From Nitrospira sp. (lineage in GTDB: Bacteria > Nitrospirota > Nitrospiria > Nitrospirales > Nitrospiraceae), in the NCBI GenBank assembly GCA_023248215.1, contig JAHFEW010000032.1, positions 1 to 43,854 on the forward strand: DNA of 43,854 nucleotides, read 5' to 3'. Positions within the stretch are counted from its first letter, which is position 1; each line of letters starts with the position of its first letter. Made by a program: the position numbers and the translations under genes. The notes under the pieces are model-generated. The model worked only from the letters and a program-made list of their open reading frames with translations. It was not told the DNA's origin and did no database searches. This document shows, one piece after another, positions 25,935 to 32,698 of this stretch.

Positions 25935-25965
25935 GGCAGTGCCGAAAGGAACGCGTGGGAATGTG

Positions 25966-25990
25966 CAATGTTCAATGCTCAGTTCTCAAT
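25966..25990 (+). repeat. Single arm related to the 20759-20811 hairpin
   Basis: The segment repeats the TTCAATGCTCA and TTCTCAATG pieces of the hairpin after the desaturase gene, with one G/A change, but its matching arm is not present here. It lies in the 305-bp gap inside the MutL-like operon. Confidence 0.5.
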
Positions 25991-26070
25991 GCTGACTAAT
26001 ACATGTTGCATTGTATGTTTTTGATCCTGAGTTTTTCGCAATCGGACAGCCCGCAGGTCCGATCACAGAG

Positions 26071-26231
26071 GTTGCTCAAAACGCCGCCTTGTTCACCCGC
26101 CCGACCCCAGGCGTGGAGACACGCCTCTCCCCGGGTCGGCCGCAAGGCGCGAGAGCCCCGAGTCGTACTGTGAGTAGTACGGCGAGGGGAACGAGCAACT
26201 GAGAACGATGCTGCGAGGCGTTTTCAGCAAC
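26071..26231. repeat. Inverted-end hairpin element within the operon gap
   Basis: The ends GTTGCTCAAAACGCC (26071) and, inverted, GTTGCTGAAAACGCC (to 26231) match at 14 of 15 positions, bounding 161 bp without a coding frame. Inside is a smaller palindrome, GTACT-GTG-AGTAC, preceded by GTC and followed by GGCGAGG. The same layout, with different arm sequences, is seen in three other elements of this window. It fills most of the only sizeable gap in the MutL-like operon and ends 8 bp before the next start codon. Confidence 0.65.
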
Positions 26232-26239
26232 CGACGACC

Positions 26240-27367
26240 ATGGCACATTCCTATACACCAGGACTGACGGTCACCGAACGGACCACCGTTCGTCGCAGAC
26301 GTATCCTGCCGTTACCCGGGACGGTCCTGGTGAAGGTGGGCGACGTGGTGCATGCTGATACTGTCGTCGCCCGCGCGGAATTGCCGGGCAAAGTCATCCC
26401 GCTCAACCTCGCCAATCAGCTGGGTATTGCGCCCGACGAGATCAAGGATTACCTCGTCAAAAAAGAAAAAGACCCAGTACAAAAAGACGACGTGCTGGCC
26501 GAGAACAAACCCTTCATCAAATGGTTTAAAACCGAAATCCGCTCGCCGATCACCGGCAGGGTGGAATCGATTTCAACCATTACCGGACAGATCCTGTTGC
26601 GGGAACCGCCGCGGGTGCTCGAACTGCGCGGCTACATCGACGGCACCATTGTCGAGGTGCATCACGAGCAGGGCGTCACGGTCGAGTTAGTCTGTAGCCT
26701 GGTGCAGGGCATTTTCGGCATCGGAGGGGAAATCAGCGGCGAGCTGGTCATGGGTGTGACGGCGCCGGACGAGCCTCTCGTCCCCGAGCAGCTGACCCCC
26801 TCCATGAAAGGGAAAATCGTGGTCGGAGGCGCCTTTCTGTCTGCTGCCACCCTGACACGCGCCAAAGAGATCGGGGTCGTCGGCTTGGTCGTCGGCGGCA
26901 TCCACGACAAAGACCTGCGGGCGCTCCTCGGCTATGATCTGGGCGTGGCCATTACCGGCTCGGAACAGGTTGGTTTTACGTTGATCCTTACGGAAGGATT
27001 CGGGACGATCCCGATGGCTCCCAAGACCTTCTCGTTGCTGTCCGCCCACGTGGGCCACAAGGCGTCTGTTTCAGGCGCGACGCAAATCCGCGCCGGCGTC
27101 ATCCGACCGGAAATCATCATACCCCAGGTGTCACTCTCCGCCGGTGCCCGGCCAGACCGGGTTGAGCGCGAGGGGATTCAGCTCGGTGATCCGGTGCGGA
27201 TCATTAGAGATCCTCTATTCGGAAAGATCGGCGCCGTATCCGGCTTGCCGTCGGAACTCAGAGCGATTCCGACGGAAAGCGAAGTCCGGGTACTCGAAGT
27301 GCGGTTTCCGGACGGCACGACCACGGTTGTTCCCCGTACCAATATCGAAGTGATCGAGGGAGCATGA
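26240..27367 (+). CDS. Biotinyl/lipoyl-like barrel protein with KOW-like C-terminus
   Basis: I recognise the fold pattern but not a named family. The 375-residue protein is soluble and strand-rich. Around residues 25-55 and 95-150 it resembles barrel-sandwich hybrids: G-T-V-L-V-K-V-G-D-V-V, then I-R-S-P-I-T-G-R-V-E-S-I, then D-G-T-I-V-E-V-H-H-E-Q-G-V. There is no lysine in the M-K-M position, so it is not a biotin or lipoate carrier. A Gly-rich middle (G-I-G-G-E-I-S-G-E-L) and a KOW-like end (D-P-L-F-G-K-I-G-A-V, then V-P-R-T-N-I-E-V-I-E) follow. Its stop overlaps the start of the next gene. It may be a cytoplasmic adaptor between the ATPase and the membrane proteins; that is inference. Confidence 0.8.
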   Translation: MAHSYTPGLTVTERTTVRRRRILPLPGTVLVKVGDVVHADTVVARAELPGKVIPLNLANQLGIAPDEIKDYLVKKEKDPVQKDDVLAENKPFIKWFKTEIRSPITGRVESISTITGQILLREPPRVLELRGYIDGTIVEVHHEQGVTVELVCSLVQGIFGIGGEISGELVMGVTAPDEPLVPEQLTPSMKGKIVVGGAFLSAATLTRAKEIGVVGLVVGGIHDKDLRALLGYDLGVAITGSEQVGFTLILTEGFGTIPMAPKTFSLLSAHVGHKASVSGATQIRAGVIRPEIIIPQVSLSAGARPDRVEREGIQLGDPVRIIRDPLFGKIGAVSGLPSELRAIPTESEVRVLEVRFPDGTTTVVPRTNIEVIEGA

Positions 27368-28620
27368 GCCGCGTAAAGCACCTCTTCCGCATTCTGCCTC
27401 TCATCGCCTCTCTCCTCGCGTTCACGCCGCAGCTCCTCTTGGCACAGCCGGCCCTTGCCCCGCCGCAACAGCTAGAGGTCTTCGATACTCCCAGCGACGG
27501 CGGAGGCAGCCTCACGGCCACCTGGGCTCCTTCCACAGCCGATAGTGCAACCGCCAAGTATCAAGTCCTGCTTCACGAAGGAGGAGCGCCTCAAGAGCCG
27601 ACCGGATGGAAAGTCCTCGCCGAATTTCCTGCGAACAGTCACTATGTCCGCGAGGCGAAGGCGGCCTGGTGGACAAAGCCGGGACAGCCGGGCGACCACG
27701 TCTACTTCATCAAGAACGGGAAAGGCACCGACTTGAAGCCTGGCCAGTCGTACGCCGTCACCGTGGCATCCGTGATGGGTCAGGCGCGATCGCTTGCCCA
27801 GCCGGTCGTAGCCTCGCCGGAGCCGAACTGGATGAACTGGAATCAACTGAACAATCTGGTGCTGGCACTGATGTTCGGCGCCGTCGTCTTTTACGCCATC
27901 AACTTGGCCAAACGAAAAGAGATCTTTCTGCGACGTATTCCCGGTCTCGATGCGGTCGACGAGGCGATCGGGCGCGCGACGGAATTAGGCAAGCCCGTTC
28001 TCTACATGACCGGTGCGCACGATATGAGCGACCCCTCGACGATTGCGGCGGCCGTCATTCTCGGACGCGTGGCTAAGAAAGCTGCTTCCTACGAAACGGA
28101 ACTCCTGGTTCCACACCGCGAACCTGTCACGATGGCCGTCTGTCAGGAAATTACCAAGCAGGCCTATCTGGAAGCCGGCAAGCCGGATCTGTTCAAGGAC
28201 GACGCCAACTTTTTCATTACCAGCGATCAATTCAGCTACACCGCTGCCGTGGACGGGATTATGCTCCGGCGAAAACCGGCGGCGAATTTTTTTATGGGTT
28301 CATACTTTGCGGAATCGCTCTTACTGACCGAAACCGGCGCCAGCACCGGCGCCATTCAAATCGCGGGGACCGACTCCGACCATCAACTCCCATTTTTCGT
28401 CACCACCTGCGACTACACCCTGATCGGCGAAGAGCTCTATGCCGCCAGCGCCTATCTGTCAAGAGAGCCGATCCAGATCGGCACGCTGCGCGGACAAGAC
28501 CTTGGCAAGGCCTTCATCCTCGGCGTCATCGGGATCGGGACCTTGCTGGCCACGATCGCCGTCGTCACCGGCGCCACCTGGCCGCAACCTCTCCTCGACC
28601 TCTTCAAGGATCTGAAATGA
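27364..28620 (+). CDS. Membrane protein with signal peptide and fibronectin-like domain (DUF6754-like)
   Basis: The 418-residue protein begins with a signal peptide (about 1-27, ending L-L-A-Q). A fibronectin-III-like domain follows at about 35-150, with L-T-A-T-W and then S-Y-A-V-T-V-A-S-V. A transmembrane helix is at about 160-178 (L-V-L-A-L-M-F-G-A-V-V-F-Y-A-I). The next 200 residues form an alpha/beta domain with P-V-L-Y-M-T-G-A-H-D-M-S-D-P-S-T and G-T-D-S-D-H-Q-L-P-F-F-V-T-T. A second helix is at about 382-402. From memory this resembles proteins labelled DUF6754, of unknown function. Predicted topology puts the fibronectin-like domain outside and the alpha/beta domain inside. Start and stop overlap both neighbours. 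Confidence 0.85.
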   Translation: MSRVKHLFRILPLIASLLAFTPQLLLAQPALAPPQQLEVFDTPSDGGGSLTATWAPSTADSATAKYQVLLHEGGAPQEPTGWKVLAEFPANSHYVREAKAAWWTKPGQPGDHVYFIKNGKGTDLKPGQSYAVTVASVMGQARSLAQPVVASPEPNWMNWNQLNNLVLALMFGAVVFYAINLAKRKEIFLRRIPGLDAVDEAIGRATELGKPVLYMTGAHDMSDPSTIAAAVILGRVAKKAASYETELLVPHREPVTMAVCQEITKQAYLEAGKPDLFKDDANFFITSDQFSYTAAVDGIMLRRKPAANFFMGSYFAESLLLTETGASTGAIQIAGTDSDHQLPFFVTTCDYTLIGEELYAASAYLSREPIQIGTLRGQDLGKAFILGVIGIGTLLATIAVVTGATWPQPLLDLFKDLK

Positions 28621-29267
28621 TCTTTCTTCGCCGGCAGCTGCCGCTGCTTATCACGATGGTGACCGGGTTGGTCATGGCCGCGCAGTATTACGTGCCGCAT
28701 CCGGCCTCCGAGCAGCTGCTCACCACCATCACCAAATGGCTCCAAATTATCGGAGGCTTCGCACTCGTGCTGGGCATTACCAGCCTCTTTCATGTGCATG
28801 CCGCGAAAATCAGGCGCAAGGAAGCCGGATGGGGCTATAGCCTGGTGCTCTATGCGGGCATGCTCGGCACCATCATAGTGGGACTCTTGAACGGCGGGAA
28901 AGAGAGCATCGACGGGGCAATGACCTCGTTCGGATGGGTCTACTCCTATACCCTCGTCCCGCTGCAAGGCACCATGTTCGCCATCCTCGCCTTCTTCATC
29001 GCCTCCGCGGCCTACCGGTCGTTTCGCGCGCGTAGCCGAGAAGCCGCCGTGTTGTTGGTGGCTGCGGTGATTGTGATGATGGGCCGGGTTCCTCTGGGTG
29101 AATACATTTTTCCGCTCAGCGGGGACCTGTCGAGTTGGATTTTGAACGTGTTGAACGCGTCCGTCCGGCGAGCCATTTTGATCGGAGTCAGCCTCGGTGC
29201 CGTGGCGCTCTCGTTCAAAATCATTTTCGGCGTGGAGCGATCATACCTGGGCGGAGGCAAAGAGTAA
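28617..29267 (+). CDS. Integral membrane protein of unknown function
   Basis: This 216-residue protein has about six hydrophobic segments, roughly 8-25, 40-58, 74-92, 115-133, 142-158 and 187-206. Basic loops (H-A-A-K-I-R-R-K-E and Y-R-S-F-R-A-R-S-R) suggest cytoplasmic faces. No transporter signature is seen. Its ATG overlaps the previous stop, and the next gene starts 5 nt after its own stop. It probably forms a complex with the flanking membrane proteins. Confidence 0.82.
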   Translation: MIFLRRQLPLLITMVTGLVMAAQYYVPHPASEQLLTTITKWLQIIGGFALVLGITSLFHVHAAKIRRKEAGWGYSLVLYAGMLGTIIVGLLNGGKESIDGAMTSFGWVYSYTLVPLQGTMFAILAFFIASAAYRSFRARSREAAVLLVAAVIVMMGRVPLGEYIFPLSGDLSSWILNVLNASVRRAILIGVSLGAVALSFKIIFGVERSYLGGGKE

Positions 29268-29272
29268 TTCAG

Positions 29273-30118
29273 ATGAGTTTCGCTGAGCGCATGTTACGGA
29301 TCGATCGGCGCATCATCTTTCTGGTGATCGGGCTCTGCACGCTTTTTCCGCTGCTGTTCCCCGTGGGACTGCCCATCAAGATTTCCTCGGAAGTGCGGGG
29401 CGTCTACGACTACATCGAGGGGCTGCCCGAAGGGTCAGTTTTTCTGCTGTCCCTCGACTTCGACCCTGCGTCCAAGCCTGAACTCTATCCCCAAGCCATC
29501 GCCATCCTGCGCCATGCCTTCGGCAAGAATCTGCGGGTCATGGCCATGACACTCTGGGTGTCCGGGACCGGCTTGGCCGATCAAATCGTATCGCAAACGG
29601 CCATGGAGGCGGGCAAGGAGAATGGAAAGGACTATGTGTTCTTGGGCTGGAGTCCGGGGGGCAGCGCAGTTATCCTGAATATGGGACAGGACCTCTACAA
29701 TGCGTTCCCTGCCGATTATGGGGGCAAAGCGACCAAAGGTCTGCCGGTCTTGGCCGGGGTGCAGAACCTGCGCGATGTGACCTATGCCGTCAGTTTGGGC
29801 GCCGGCAACCCCGGGGTCGAAGCCTGGTACGTCTTCGGCAAGGACAAGTATAAGTTCGAACTTGGCGGCGGCTGCACGGGCGTCATGGCGCCCGGTCTCT
29901 ATCCGTTGTTGCGGAGTGGCCAGATCAACGGATTGATCGGCGGCCTGCGTGGGGCTGCAGAATACGAAACGCTCATCGGCCAGAAGGGCAAGGCCGTCGC
30001 CGGAATGGATGCCCAATCGGCCACCCACCTCGCCATCATCGTGCTCGTCGCGATCTGTAACATTTTTTACTTTACGATGCGGCGGCAACAGCGCCGACAA
30101 GGCCGAATAGGATCGTAG
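29273..30118 (+). CDS. Two-helix membrane protein with a large conserved-looking domain
   Basis: The ATG at 29273 gives 281 residues; the open frame reaching back to 29135 lies inside the previous gene. A transmembrane helix at about 14-34 is followed by a roughly 215-residue domain and a second helix near 258-275 with a basic tail. The domain has an alpha/beta pattern with V-F-L-L-S-L-D-F-D-P-A-S-K-P-E, V-F-L-G-W-S-P-G-G-S-A-V and a glycine-rich G-G-G-C-T-G-V-M-A-P-G. The two-helix plus alpha/beta layout mirrors the protein encoded at 27364, which suggests partner subunits. The function is unknown. Confidence 0.82.
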   Translation: MSFAERMLRIDRRIIFLVIGLCTLFPLLFPVGLPIKISSEVRGVYDYIEGLPEGSVFLLSLDFDPASKPELYPQAIAILRHAFGKNLRVMAMTLWVSGTGLADQIVSQTAMEAGKENGKDYVFLGWSPGGSAVILNMGQDLYNAFPADYGGKATKGLPVLAGVQNLRDVTYAVSLGAGNPGVEAWYVFGKDKYKFELGGGCTGVMAPGLYPLLRSGQINGLIGGLRGAAEYETLIGQKGKAVAGMDAQSATHLAIIVLVAICNIFYFTMRRQQRRQGRIGS

Positions 30119-30123
30119 TCACG

Positions 30124-30879
30124 ATGGATCTTCCTTTTGACGTGATACTCGGCGGGTGGATCGCGACGGGGTTGACCCTCTTCATCCTGTCGTTCCTCTA
30201 TGAGGACAATCCGTTGTTCAAGCTCGCCGAACATCTCTACGTCGGCGTCTCGCTCGGCTATACGATCGTCAAAACCTATGACACGGTGGTCATGACTCTG
30301 ATCGTGCGGCCGATCCTCGACAAGGGGGAATGGTCGCTGCTGATCCCTGTCGCCATCGGCACGCTCATGTTGACCCGGTATGTCCCCAAAGCCGCCTGGC
30401 TCTCCCGTTATGCCTTTGCCTTTATCGTTGGCGTCGGCGCGGGACTGGCGATTCCCCGGACGATTTCTTCGTTCATTCTGAAACAGGTCGAGGATACGGT
30501 TCGCCCGCTGCTGGCCATCGCGCCGGGCGACGGCGTCACCTTTACCTATTCCTTGCTGAATCCTGCCAGTAATCTGAATGGGATCATCATTCTGATCGGC
30601 GTGGTCTCGGTCCTGTTCTACTTCTTTTTCTCGGTGGAACATTCAGGGCCCGGCAAAATGGTCGCGCGCGCCGGCATAGTGTTTCTCATGATCTCGTTCG
30701 GAGCGGCCTTTGGCTATACCGTCATGGCCCGCATGTCGCTCCTGATCGGCCGGCTGACGGACCTCCTCGAGTTCTCCGATGCGTCCTATGGGCGCCCCAC
30801 GCTCTGGCTCTTCCTGCTGACCGTGGCCACCCTGATTGGGTTAAGCCGGCGGCGCTCCGAACATCCGCCGGAACGGTAG
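30124..30879 (+). CDS. Polytopic membrane protein, last gene of the MutL-like operon
   Basis: This 251-residue protein has about six or seven hydrophobic helices at roughly 8-26, 35-50, 75-92, 96-115, 150-178, 185-208 and 222-240. Conserved-looking polar residues include F-L-Y-E-D-N-P-L-F-K-L-A-E-H near residue 27, placed between the first two helices. It starts 5 nt after the previous stop. A short hairpin at 30880-30897 and a 190-bp inverted-end element follow, which mark the operon end. Confidence 0.82.
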   Translation: MDLPFDVILGGWIATGLTLFILSFLYEDNPLFKLAEHLYVGVSLGYTIVKTYDTVVMTLIVRPILDKGEWSLLIPVAIGTLMLTRYVPKAAWLSRYAFAFIVGVGAGLAIPRTISSFILKQVEDTVRPLLAIAPGDGVTFTYSLLNPASNLNGIIILIGVVSVLFYFFFSVEHSGPGKMVARAGIVFLMISFGAAFGYTVMARMSLLIGRLTDLLEFSDASYGRPTLWLFLLTVATLIGLSRRRSEHPPER

Positions 30880-30897
30880 CCGTGTGCTGAAACACGG
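30880..30897 (+). terminator. Short stem-loop at the end of the MutL-like operon
   Basis: CCGTGT at 30880-30885 pairs with ACACGG at 30892-30897 around a 6-nt loop, directly after the last stop codon. No T-run follows, so termination strength is doubtful. Confidence 0.3.
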
Positions 30898-30954
30898 TAA
30901 GGAAGCCACAGGAAATAGGAGATTCGAAGGGTGAACCAGCCACAGCAGTCACCA

Positions 30955-31144
30955 CAGGATGTTCAAAAAGGCCGTCCAGCAAGGCCGCAGGAAGCGAAGA
31001 GGCGAATCGTACCCTGCGCCGTACGTTGAGCCTCTGAGGTTCACGACGCGCTGAATAAAGCGCGTCACGTTTGTGAACGCCGGCGAGACAGTGAGCCGGC
31101 AGTGTCTTGCGAGAACGATGCTGGTGGGTTTTTTCAACATCCTG
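30955..31144. repeat. Inverted-end hairpin element, 190 bp
   Basis: The outer ends CAGGATGTTCAAAAA (30955) and, inverted, CAGGATGTTGAAAAA (to 31144) match at 14 of 15 positions, and looser pairing continues inward through CCAGCA. Inside are a GTAC...GTAC palindrome beside GTTGAGCCTC and a strong hairpin, GTTCAC...ACGCGC-TGAATAAA-GCGCGT...GTGAAC. No coding frame is supported. It fills most of the 312-bp gap before the Memo-like gene and ends 8 bp upstream of that gene's -35 box. Confidence 0.7.
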
Positions 31145-31151
31145 GTACCAG

Positions 31152-31181
31152 TTGCACCTTGGAAGTTTGCTTCGTTAGAAT
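31152..31181 (+). promoter_or_regulatory. Promoter for the Memo-like gene, very close to its start codon
   Basis: TTGCAC at 31152-31157 and TAGAAT at 31176-31181 are 18 bp apart. Transcription would begin near 31188, only about 4 nt before the ATG at 31192, which predicts a leaderless or nearly leaderless mRNA. Confidence 0.55.
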
Positions 31182-31191
31182 GCCACTCATT

Positions 31192-32442
31192 ATGGAATCA
31201 ACTACGACCATCACCGCCAAAGATCCCGCGCAGTATCCGCTGCTGCGCAACCTTCAATTTTCACCGATTAAGGAAGGGGAAGAGCAGTACGTCGTGCTCT
31301 GGGATCCGACCGGCTTGAGCAAAGAACGACTGGTCCTGCCGCTGAACTACTTTTTCATCGTGCAGCATCTGGATGGGGAACATACCCTCCAGGACATCGG
31401 CGCCATTTATCTGAAGCGGTTCGGCGAGTTCCTCATGCCGAACAAAGTTGAGCAGCTGCTGGCGGATCTGGATACGAAATTATTCCTGGAAGGGGAGCGG
31501 ACCGAGCAAGCCAAACAACAGGCGTTGGAGACCTATCGCCAAGCGTCCTGTCGGCTGCCGCAGTTTGCCGGCCGGAGTTATGAAGCCGACGCCGCCAAGC
31601 TTCGCGCCCAAATCAAGGGCTTCTTCACCTCGAAGGAAGGGCCGGAAGTCAAGGCTTCCGAGCATGCGGGCACAGCCATCAAGGGGCTCGTCGCTCCGAC
31701 CTACGAACTGAAACATGCCGGCCCCATCTATGCTTGGGCCTATAAAGAGCTGCAGGAAGCCCAGCAGCCGGACCTGTACGTACTCATCGGCACCGCCCAT
31801 TCCGGACTCGAACAACTGGTGACGGTGACGGATAAAGACTTTGAGACCCCCCTGGGAATCGTCAAGATCGAACGAAGTGTCACCGATCGTCTCCGCGAGC
31901 AAATTCCTTCCGCCTTCACCGAAGAACTGGCACATCAAAATGAACATGCACTGGAATTTCAGCTGCCATTCCTGCAAGAGAGCCTCGGCAAAGAGAAGCC
32001 CTTCACGATTGTTCCGGTCCTCACATCGTTTTCAGCGGACAGCCTGCGCGATCCGCAAGTACGGGCACAGGTCGAGACGTTTCTTCAGACATTGAAGGAC
32101 GCCTTGGCCGCCTCCGGAAAACCGTACTGTGTCGTGGTCGGAGCGGAACTGGCCCATATCGGCATGCGTTACGGCGATTCGGCTCCGCCGACGGATTTTT
32201 CCTTCCACCGTTGTATGCAAATCGACCTCGAGATGCTCAAGCATGTCGAGAACCGGGACCCGGAAGAGTTCGCGAAGTTCATTCAGAAAGAAAACGATCA
32301 GCGCCGCATCTCCGGCTTCTCACCGATCTACTCGCTCCTGCGCTTGATCCGAGCAGAATCGGGGCAGGTCCTGCGCTACGATCGTGGCATCACCGACCAG
32401 TATAATTCGACGGTTACGTATGCTAGCATGGCCTTCTTCTAA
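31192..32442 (+). CDS. amrB: AmmeMemoRadiSam system protein B (Memo-like) with an extra N-terminal domain
   Basis: The C-terminal 260 residues are a Memo/DUF52 domain, related to extradiol dioxygenases. Visible marks are A-P-T-Y-E-L-K-H-A-G-P, I-G-T-A-H-S-G-L, H-A-L-E-F-Q-L-P-F-L and G-A-E-L-A-H-I-G. In many genomes the protein is encoded with AmmeCR1 and a radical SAM partner, but neither is in the window. The first 110 residues form a separate domain: V-L-P-L-N-Y-F-F-I-V-Q-H-L-D-G-E-H-T-L-Q-D-I, then helices and V-E-Q-L-L-A-D-L-D. It resembles a PqqD-like winged helix, a resemblance only. I chose the ATG at 31192, 416 residues; an ATG at 31180 overlaps the -10 box. Function of the system is unproven. 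Confidence 0.85.
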   Translation: MESTTTITAKDPAQYPLLRNLQFSPIKEGEEQYVVLWDPTGLSKERLVLPLNYFFIVQHLDGEHTLQDIGAIYLKRFGEFLMPNKVEQLLADLDTKLFLEGERTEQAKQQALETYRQASCRLPQFAGRSYEADAAKLRAQIKGFFTSKEGPEVKASEHAGTAIKGLVAPTYELKHAGPIYAWAYKELQEAQQPDLYVLIGTAHSGLEQLVTVTDKDFETPLGIVKIERSVTDRLREQIPSAFTEELAHQNEHALEFQLPFLQESLGKEKPFTIVPVLTSFSADSLRDPQVRAQVETFLQTLKDALAASGKPYCVVVGAELAHIGMRYGDSAPPTDFSFHRCMQIDLEMLKHVENRDPEEFAKFIQKENDQRRISGFSPIYSLLRLIRAESGQVLRYDRGITDQYNSTVTYASMAFF

Positions 32443-32568
32443 GCAGAACGGTGAAAACGACCGCCGGCGTCGTTCTCGCATCGCTCAGATCCCTCAACGT
32501 ACCATAAAGGTACGCCTCGGTCCTTTGCTCGCTGTGGCCTAGCCGGACAGTCGTTTTGACCGTTCTGC
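32443..32568. repeat. Inverted-end hairpin element A, tandem pair
   Basis: The ends GCAGAACGGTGAAAACGAC (32443) and, inverted, GCAGAACGGTCAAAACGAC (to 32568) differ at one position. The centre contains CTCAACGTACC-ATAAA-GGTACGCCTCGG. It begins directly after the Memo-like stop codon and could work as its terminator. It stands 3 bp from the next element. Confidence 0.75.
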
Positions 32569-32571
32569 AAG

Positions 32572-32698
32572 GCGGGCTGCTGAAAAAGCCACCCAACTTC
32601 GTTCTCGTTTCGTCAAAATCCTCAACGTACCCCCACGGGTACGCCTCCGGTTTTATCTCGCCTGCGGCCTCGCTGGGCGGACTTTTTGAGCAGCCTGC
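32572..32698. repeat. Inverted-end hairpin element B, abutting a vapC stub
   Basis: The ends GCGGGCTGCTGAAAAAG (32572) and, inverted, GCAGGCTGCTCAAAAAG (to 32698) match except at two positions. The centre is CTCAACGTACC-CCCAC-GGGTACGCCTCCGG, nearly the same as in element A although the arms differ. Its right end coincides with the point where the vapC reading frame stops. Confidence 0.75.

Follow-up and report, generated by a model that had tools for sequence, protein, structure and literature searches.

Nitrospira are nitrite oxidisers and matter for the nitrogen cycle. Among the short repeats described from bacteria, REP, BIME and REPIN sequences are intergenic palindromes, many per genome and often positioned after genes, with REPs being 20–40 nt long and having a 5′ tetranucleotide and a RAYT partner, and ERIC elements carry internal inserts. 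The available part of PMC2229807 describes the 127-bp ERIC (IRU) elements of enterobacteria as non-autonomous, intergenic, co-transcribed with their neighbours and folding into a long stem-loop, with the mobilising transposase unproven, and the available part of PMC10359306 gives YTAR as the target duplication of the IS5 group. N. moscoviensis appears in a table of predicted REP sequences in the accessible portion of PMC12306157, and some copies of the family reported here may have been counted as REPs in that table. The family itself was described nowhere in a literature search covering open-licence full texts only.

Here we analyze four hairpins, e1–e4, in the window, i.e. the whole stretch of 43,854 nucleotides of Nitrospira sp. 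DNA under study. They are members of a large dispersed family of short mobile elements found in the DNA of Nitrospira-like bacteria.

Results

The original prediction had placed four hairpins in the window, and all four were found with ends right to 1–2 bases, each with the GTAC-loop-GTAC tip claimed for it, read from the sequence. Element e1 (26070..26232, minus strand; recognised by the covariance model R1 described below, by folding and from sequence) appears to be an old single hairpin with arms GGTTGCT/AGCAACC, a nested GC-rich hairpin insert and a tip at 26165..26180 (minus strand). Element e2 at full length (30877..31147, minus strand; R-end match and R1) appears to be a decayed long-form MITE, of which the L end lies at 31147 and the R end, with 3 mismatches and at family spacing, at position 30877, coinciding with the TAG stop of the upstream gene 30124-30879, and the flanking 4-mers have decayed. 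Its hairpin, from M arm to L arm and with an inserted internal module, spans 30955..31144 (minus strand; mechanical inverted-end search, folding and R1) with the tip at 31009..31024 (minus strand). A Memo-like gene (PF01875, by Pfam; 31192..32442, plus strand) separates e2 from e3 (32443..32568, plus strand; inverted ends, folding and R1), a single hairpin with arms GCAGAACGGT/ACCGTTCTGC and a tip at 32499..32513 (plus strand). Only 3 bp past e3 starts a second single hairpin, e4 (32572..32698, plus strand; sequence, folding and genome search; tip at 32627..32642, plus strand), and the neighbour beyond is a MazE-like gene on the minus strand. The predicted placement at gene ends or before starts is borne out by e3, which begins right behind the TAA stop of the Memo-like gene, and by e1, which ends 7 nt upstream of the ATG of the gene at 26240.

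A mechanical search picked up the inverted ends of e2 and e3 (93% and 95% complementary, respectively), and those of e1 and e4 lie outside its list and were read by eye. The fold of every element beats 200/200 dinucleotide shuffles, with z of -4.2 and -3.5 for e3 and e4 folded as DNA and -3.5 and -4.1 for e1 and e2 folded as RNA. Put on one strand, the elements share a layout of outer arm, G.G mismatch, A/T stem, GC stem, conserved internal loops (GTTCTCG and CTGCGGCC), variable inner stem and GTAC tip. The CTCAAC and GCCTC flanks expected around the tip are exact in e3 and e4 and not in e2 (CTCAAC/GATTC) or e1 (CTCGCC/GACTC). From model scores and layout we infer that e2 is a decayed full mobile unit and that e1, e3 and e4 are old hairpin-only descendants. 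Recurrent modules (AAGACACTGCCGGCTCAC...GTGGACCTC, GGGAAAAGAGCCTG...GGCGGGTAAGAA and a AAGGCGCGTCTTGGCGCGCC hairpin) lie at similar positions inside hairpins at window 30970-31100 and in loci L039-L043 and L052, giving forms of 230-380 bp. Separately, short self-complementary AT-rich repeats of the AATTCTGAATTATGAATTC type (window 25960-26020, L150, L158) occupy the gap upstream of e1 in some species.

With ≤3 mismatches allowed, the tip core CTCAACGTAC-N7-GTACGCCTC occurs at 41 places in the genome and the reversed pattern at 1. Of the 41 places 30 were retrieved, and R1 comprises 23 copies, i.e. 22 tip-search hits and e4, leaving out duplicates and loci with long inserts or odd surroundings. 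Both e3 and e4 are inside the training set; e1 and e2 are outside it and, untrained, match R1 at E=1.3e-4 and E=1.9e-16. The window's genome has at least 135 R1 matches (E≤0.1, with scores for 150 of 2455 candidates), and there are 40–109 in each of 27 of the 28 congeners (E≤0.001; 113 candidates scored), with 2 in the remaining congener, G004, at the same threshold. A covariance-model search of the genome had been proposed together with the hairpins, and it yielded both further copies and covariation among them. G004, which has next to no family members and none at either the e1 or the e3/e4 locus, is a natural control genome. At E≤1e-5 the model matched 64 of 148 genomes sampled from the phylum (32 of the same taxonomic family, the window's own included, 5 of the same order, 2 of the same class and 25 others); 84 had no match, and among the 20 of them listed none was of the same family or order. 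The exact tip occurs in at least 119 stretches of named genomes, and among the matches listed the titles are mostly Nitrospira (including N. defluvii and N. moscoviensis) or other Nitrospirota, with Methylomirabilota, Geobacter sp. OR-1, Deltaproteobacteria, Acidobacteria and more besides. Plasmid and phage collections gave no family match.

The intact form is about 200 bp, bounded by CAGG...CCTG, and consists of a hairpin from L to M followed by a tail carrying a second right end, R; it reads CAGG(A/C)TG..GAAAAAG, hairpin core, CTTTTTG..CATCCTG, a tail of ~70 bp, and TTTTTC..CAGCCTG. Its terminal inverted repeats (L, TAGCAGGATGCGGAAAAA; R, TTTTTCCGCAGCCTGCTA) are at near-fixed spacing, with R mostly 68–72 bp past M. 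The outer end TAGCAGGNTGYTGAAAAA matched 192 times in the genome, versus 2 for the reversed pattern, counting ends and not elements, and among the matches listed there were many facing pairs ~206 bp apart. Twenty stretches were picked for facing end pairs, of which 19 were read through (201–378 bp). When one copy was compared by BLAST with the genus, most matches, at many loci, started at query positions 397–408 and stopped at 608–619, and copies on two other contigs were 99–100% identical, which on sequence grounds is taken as a sign of recent movement. These ends (CAGG...CCTG, tail and R end), together with the YTAR target and the kept G.G mismatch described below, go beyond the original prediction.

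There were 38 distinct long copies with good ends (from 378 records, strands collapsed), 29 with TA on both sides and 9 without TA on one or both sides. In 27 of the 29 the flanking 4-mers are identical, being CTAG in 21, TTAG in 3 and CTAA in 3, and the target duplication is therefore 4-bp YTAR (for CTAG versus the rest, Fisher p=5.9e-5). A TA duplication with the G inside the element was considered and dropped, as the bases outside the TA are identical on both sides. Among 102 hairpin-only units that have no R end, just 1 shows identical 4-mers with TA on both sides, and the data therefore give no support for e1, e3 and e4 having moved as single hairpins; with the same count, a short TA-bounded form is a weak candidate for the ancestral unit. 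At locus L081 the window's genome reads CTAG-element-CTAG, and nine relatives with a similar flank (L361, L362, L363, L365, L368, L371-L374) have a bare stop codon there, reading CTAG in L362 and L365 and CTAA, GTAG, ATAG or similar elsewhere, which is the kind of empty site in relatives that had been sought. The same stop in several other relatives (L349, L350, L352, L353 and L356 among them) bears other, older elements, so that this stop was hit before this lineage, or repeatedly, or copies were converted. The suggestion of a non-autonomous mobile element is thus upheld by the terminal repeats and the 4-bp duplication of the target, as well as by the empty sites and by dispersed copies that are nearly identical. 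In L032 (2105-2363) and L356 the outer frame surrounds an unrelated interior of CGTGAATCGTGAAACG-type repeats, and in L226 (3644-3814) the same ends frame another interior sequence, TTGTCATCCTGAGCGAAGCGAAGGATCT, presumably a common repeat.

No transposase with the family's ends was found around the 3 DDE_3, 5 Y1_Tnp and 1 DDE_Tnp_1 genes of the genome; the single DDE_Tnp_1 gene has an internal stop and no matching ends. Four of the five distant end pairs in fetched loci were opened (L177 is the fifth) and a transposase was recognised in none of the four, and no IS5-like element with CAGG(A/C)TG ends was found. The search for an autonomous partner with the same ends covered three Pfam families in the window's own genome and the fetched loci. 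An element lies ~200 bp downstream of one IS200-like gene, which has none on its other side (L032). Could a Y1 transposase instead move the hairpins in single-stranded form, in a REP/RAYT-type system? The genome holds three Y1_Tnp genes of RAYT-like length (the RAYT label being our own), and structure is kept more than sequence; but the loci of these three genes had no element ends, and a 4-bp YTAR duplication fits a DDE transposase. Y1 transposases make no target duplication. This reading was dropped on the missing ends and the 4-bp duplication, and we consider it very improbable.

The claim that the arms differ while pairing is kept was confirmed. Within the 23 training copies 94.7% of cells pair, against 35–43% in slid controls, and 18 of 32 pairs changed on both sides compared with 7.6 (sd 1.6) when shuffled, a value reached in 0/500 shuffles, the structure having been derived from the same 23 sequences. 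In the window's own genome 998 of 1078 cells from 77 arm pairs (77 of 79 distinct pairs, from 150 of 169 matches, with the window's e1 outside) are Watson-Crick versus 838 (sd 7) with arms shuffled between copies, numbers that overstate the independent events since the copies share ancestry. Three pair types are nevertheless seen at single positions, e.g. AT 58, CG 10 and GC 4. The mid-stem G.G mismatch is kept in 73/77 copies of the own genome, in 13/14 e1 orthologues and in 119/135 copies of a broader filtered set, which retained 135 of 222 arm pairs (all rows of A7 left out), the position being paired in the remaining 16 of the 135. Non-Watson-Crick cells comprise 13 G.T versus 20 A.C in the own genome and 26 versus 43 in the 135 copies; because G.T, which selection on one RNA strand should favour as G.U on that strand, is not above A.C on the consensus strand, such selection is unsupported. 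The suggestion of a structured RNA found no support, there being no such G.U excess and no Rfam match (0, with the whole window searched at gathering scores and the e3/e4 region up to E=1).

These data bear on template switching, in which the polymerase copies one arm of a near-palindrome onto the other and structural selection is unneeded. The process is described for hairpin genes in the available part of PMC8794818, a DNA-level process predicts the missing preference for G.T, which speaks for it, and paired mismatch positions in 16/135 are what correction would leave. Correction should, however, erase a G.G mismatch, which is instead kept in nearly all copies and speaks for structural constraint, and the tip and internal loops are conserved across copies too. 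Template switching as the whole explanation is possible but falls somewhat short of an even chance.

The layout recurs in 27 loci from ten more distant Nitrospirota genomes, loci that were chosen by R1, which rewards pairing. In 12 of these (from G036, G045, G056 and G076) the arms are largely unlike those of the window's genus and are still paired, and in the remaining loci they resemble them. In L326, L336 and L346, all from G056, the lower internal loop is apparently flipped relative to the tip, which a template-switch inversion might leave. Seventeen tip matches from named genomes were inspected, where the tip was the search key and its conservation proves nothing, so the finding is one of different but paired arms: L215 (Methylomirabilota), L244 and L253 (Deltaproteobacteria) and L260 (an Uhrbacteria bin) are long hairpins with other arms, L230 and L271 have L215's left arm, L274 has Nitrospira-type arms, and the rest were cut, masked or unclear. 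It is conceivable, though we think it unlikely, that the family belongs to a class of mobile hairpins recognised as folded DNA and spanning several phyla. The mobility machinery would then read the tip (CTC-AAC-GTAC...GTAC-GCC-TC), the internal loops and the G.G mismatch; of the arms it would require pairing alone, leaving them free to be rewritten into lineage-specific arms on one conserved tip.

Element e1 has orthologues: in 17 of 26 congeners R1 (E≤0.1) detects an element ahead of the corresponding start codon, with two of the matches partial; of the other nine, L144, L154, L155 and L160 retain right-hand remnants and L150, L156, L157, L158 and L161 none. Behind the Memo-like gene, at its stop codon, at least one hairpin is present in 25 of 26 congeners, of differing types, and only G004 (L194) is empty. 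Here L176 and L179 combine one type's left arm with the other type's right arm; neighbouring hairpins therefore recombine via shared cores and can lose pairing. Gene context was taken from a simple custom gene caller, which got the Memo gene around e2 wrong. Of 39 elements whose flanks were called, 23 start ≤12 bp from the stop of a gene reading into them, 8 overlap a called gene, through either a spurious call or a genuine insertion, and 1 of 34 with two called neighbours has divergent flanks. Among the gene gaps of the same loci, those with element motifs were divergent in 0/31 and convergent in 9/31, compared with 5/32 and 3/32 for gaps without them, in small samples. The window has 25 CTAGs where its base composition predicts 162; of the 25, 3 are at stops, 14 within genes and 8 between genes.

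Such positions are also what would be seen if the elements were RNA-level signals under selection, i.e. two-way intrinsic terminators or mRNA-end hairpins, with mobility being their origin only. Placement directly 3′ of stop codons, the sample without divergent gaps, a GC stem bordered by an A run and a T run, and hairpins after the same gene in nearly all congeners are consistent with this, and terminator function as first proposed is plausible by position. Nevertheless a standard scan, whose scope does not include stems with ~80-nt loops, predicted 3 terminator sites and none within e1–e4, the consensus strand has no G.U excess, and CTAG-stop insertion with loss of in-gene insertions would give the same placement. 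RNA-level selection is a real possibility without being the probable one, and insertion survival at stop codons may explain most of the placement.

Discussion

Patterns detected here are best explained, probably in our judgment, by a MITE family of IS5 target type that survives at gene ends and whose arms drift together. A unit of about 200 bp inserts with a 4-bp YTAR duplication, presumably via an IS5-type transposase acting in trans. CTAG is rare in this DNA, and insertion at a C-TAG stop would rebuild the stop, so that copies may survive best at gene ends, where they are in fact positioned; the inserted hairpin would then be the first feature of the 3′ untranslated region. Old copies shed the R end and the duplication while their stem stays paired, the two arms drifting together. 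Two influences would jointly maintain this pairing: correction of one arm against the other as the DNA is replicated, and selection for structure at gene ends, where the hairpin would probably mark the transcript end or insulate in both directions. Against this explanation are the transposase searches, none of which found one with the ends, the 1/102 hairpin-only units with identical 4-mers, the terminator scan, the position of e1 before a start codon and the 8/39 overlaps with genes.

The family is very numerous in Nitrospira nitrite oxidisers and puts a hairpin at gene ends, with the stop codon itself being the target and the stop preserved. With its tens of copies in each genome, sites in common (at three loci), covarying arms and a mismatch that is kept, it lends itself to testing whether paired arms evolve by structural selection or by template switching.

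Compared with REP, BIME and REPIN sequences, the family shares the abundance of intergenic palindromes and their frequent position after genes, and differs from REPs in size and in lacking the tetranucleotide and the RAYT partner. It resembles ERIC (IRU) in being a short, non-autonomous intergenic repeat with a long stem-loop, internal inserts and an unproven transposase, whereas a tail and second right end are found only in the Nitrospira family, and we know of no sequence common to the two. A further difference is that ERIC elements have TA at their termini, according to the available part of PMC2229807, rather than 4-bp YTAR. The same part of that source describes RUP, Correia/NEMIS and other TA-target MITEs as small, mostly with terminal inverted repeats and with transcripts folding into long stems, all of which is similar, and RUP and Correia/NEMIS again have TA at their termini, not a YTAR duplication. 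To the IS5 group the family is linked by its YTAR duplication (CTAG, TTAG, CTAA), although its elements have no transposase gene. With bacterial MITEs it shares a short unit, dispersed copies, terminal inverted repeats, a target duplication and an empty site.
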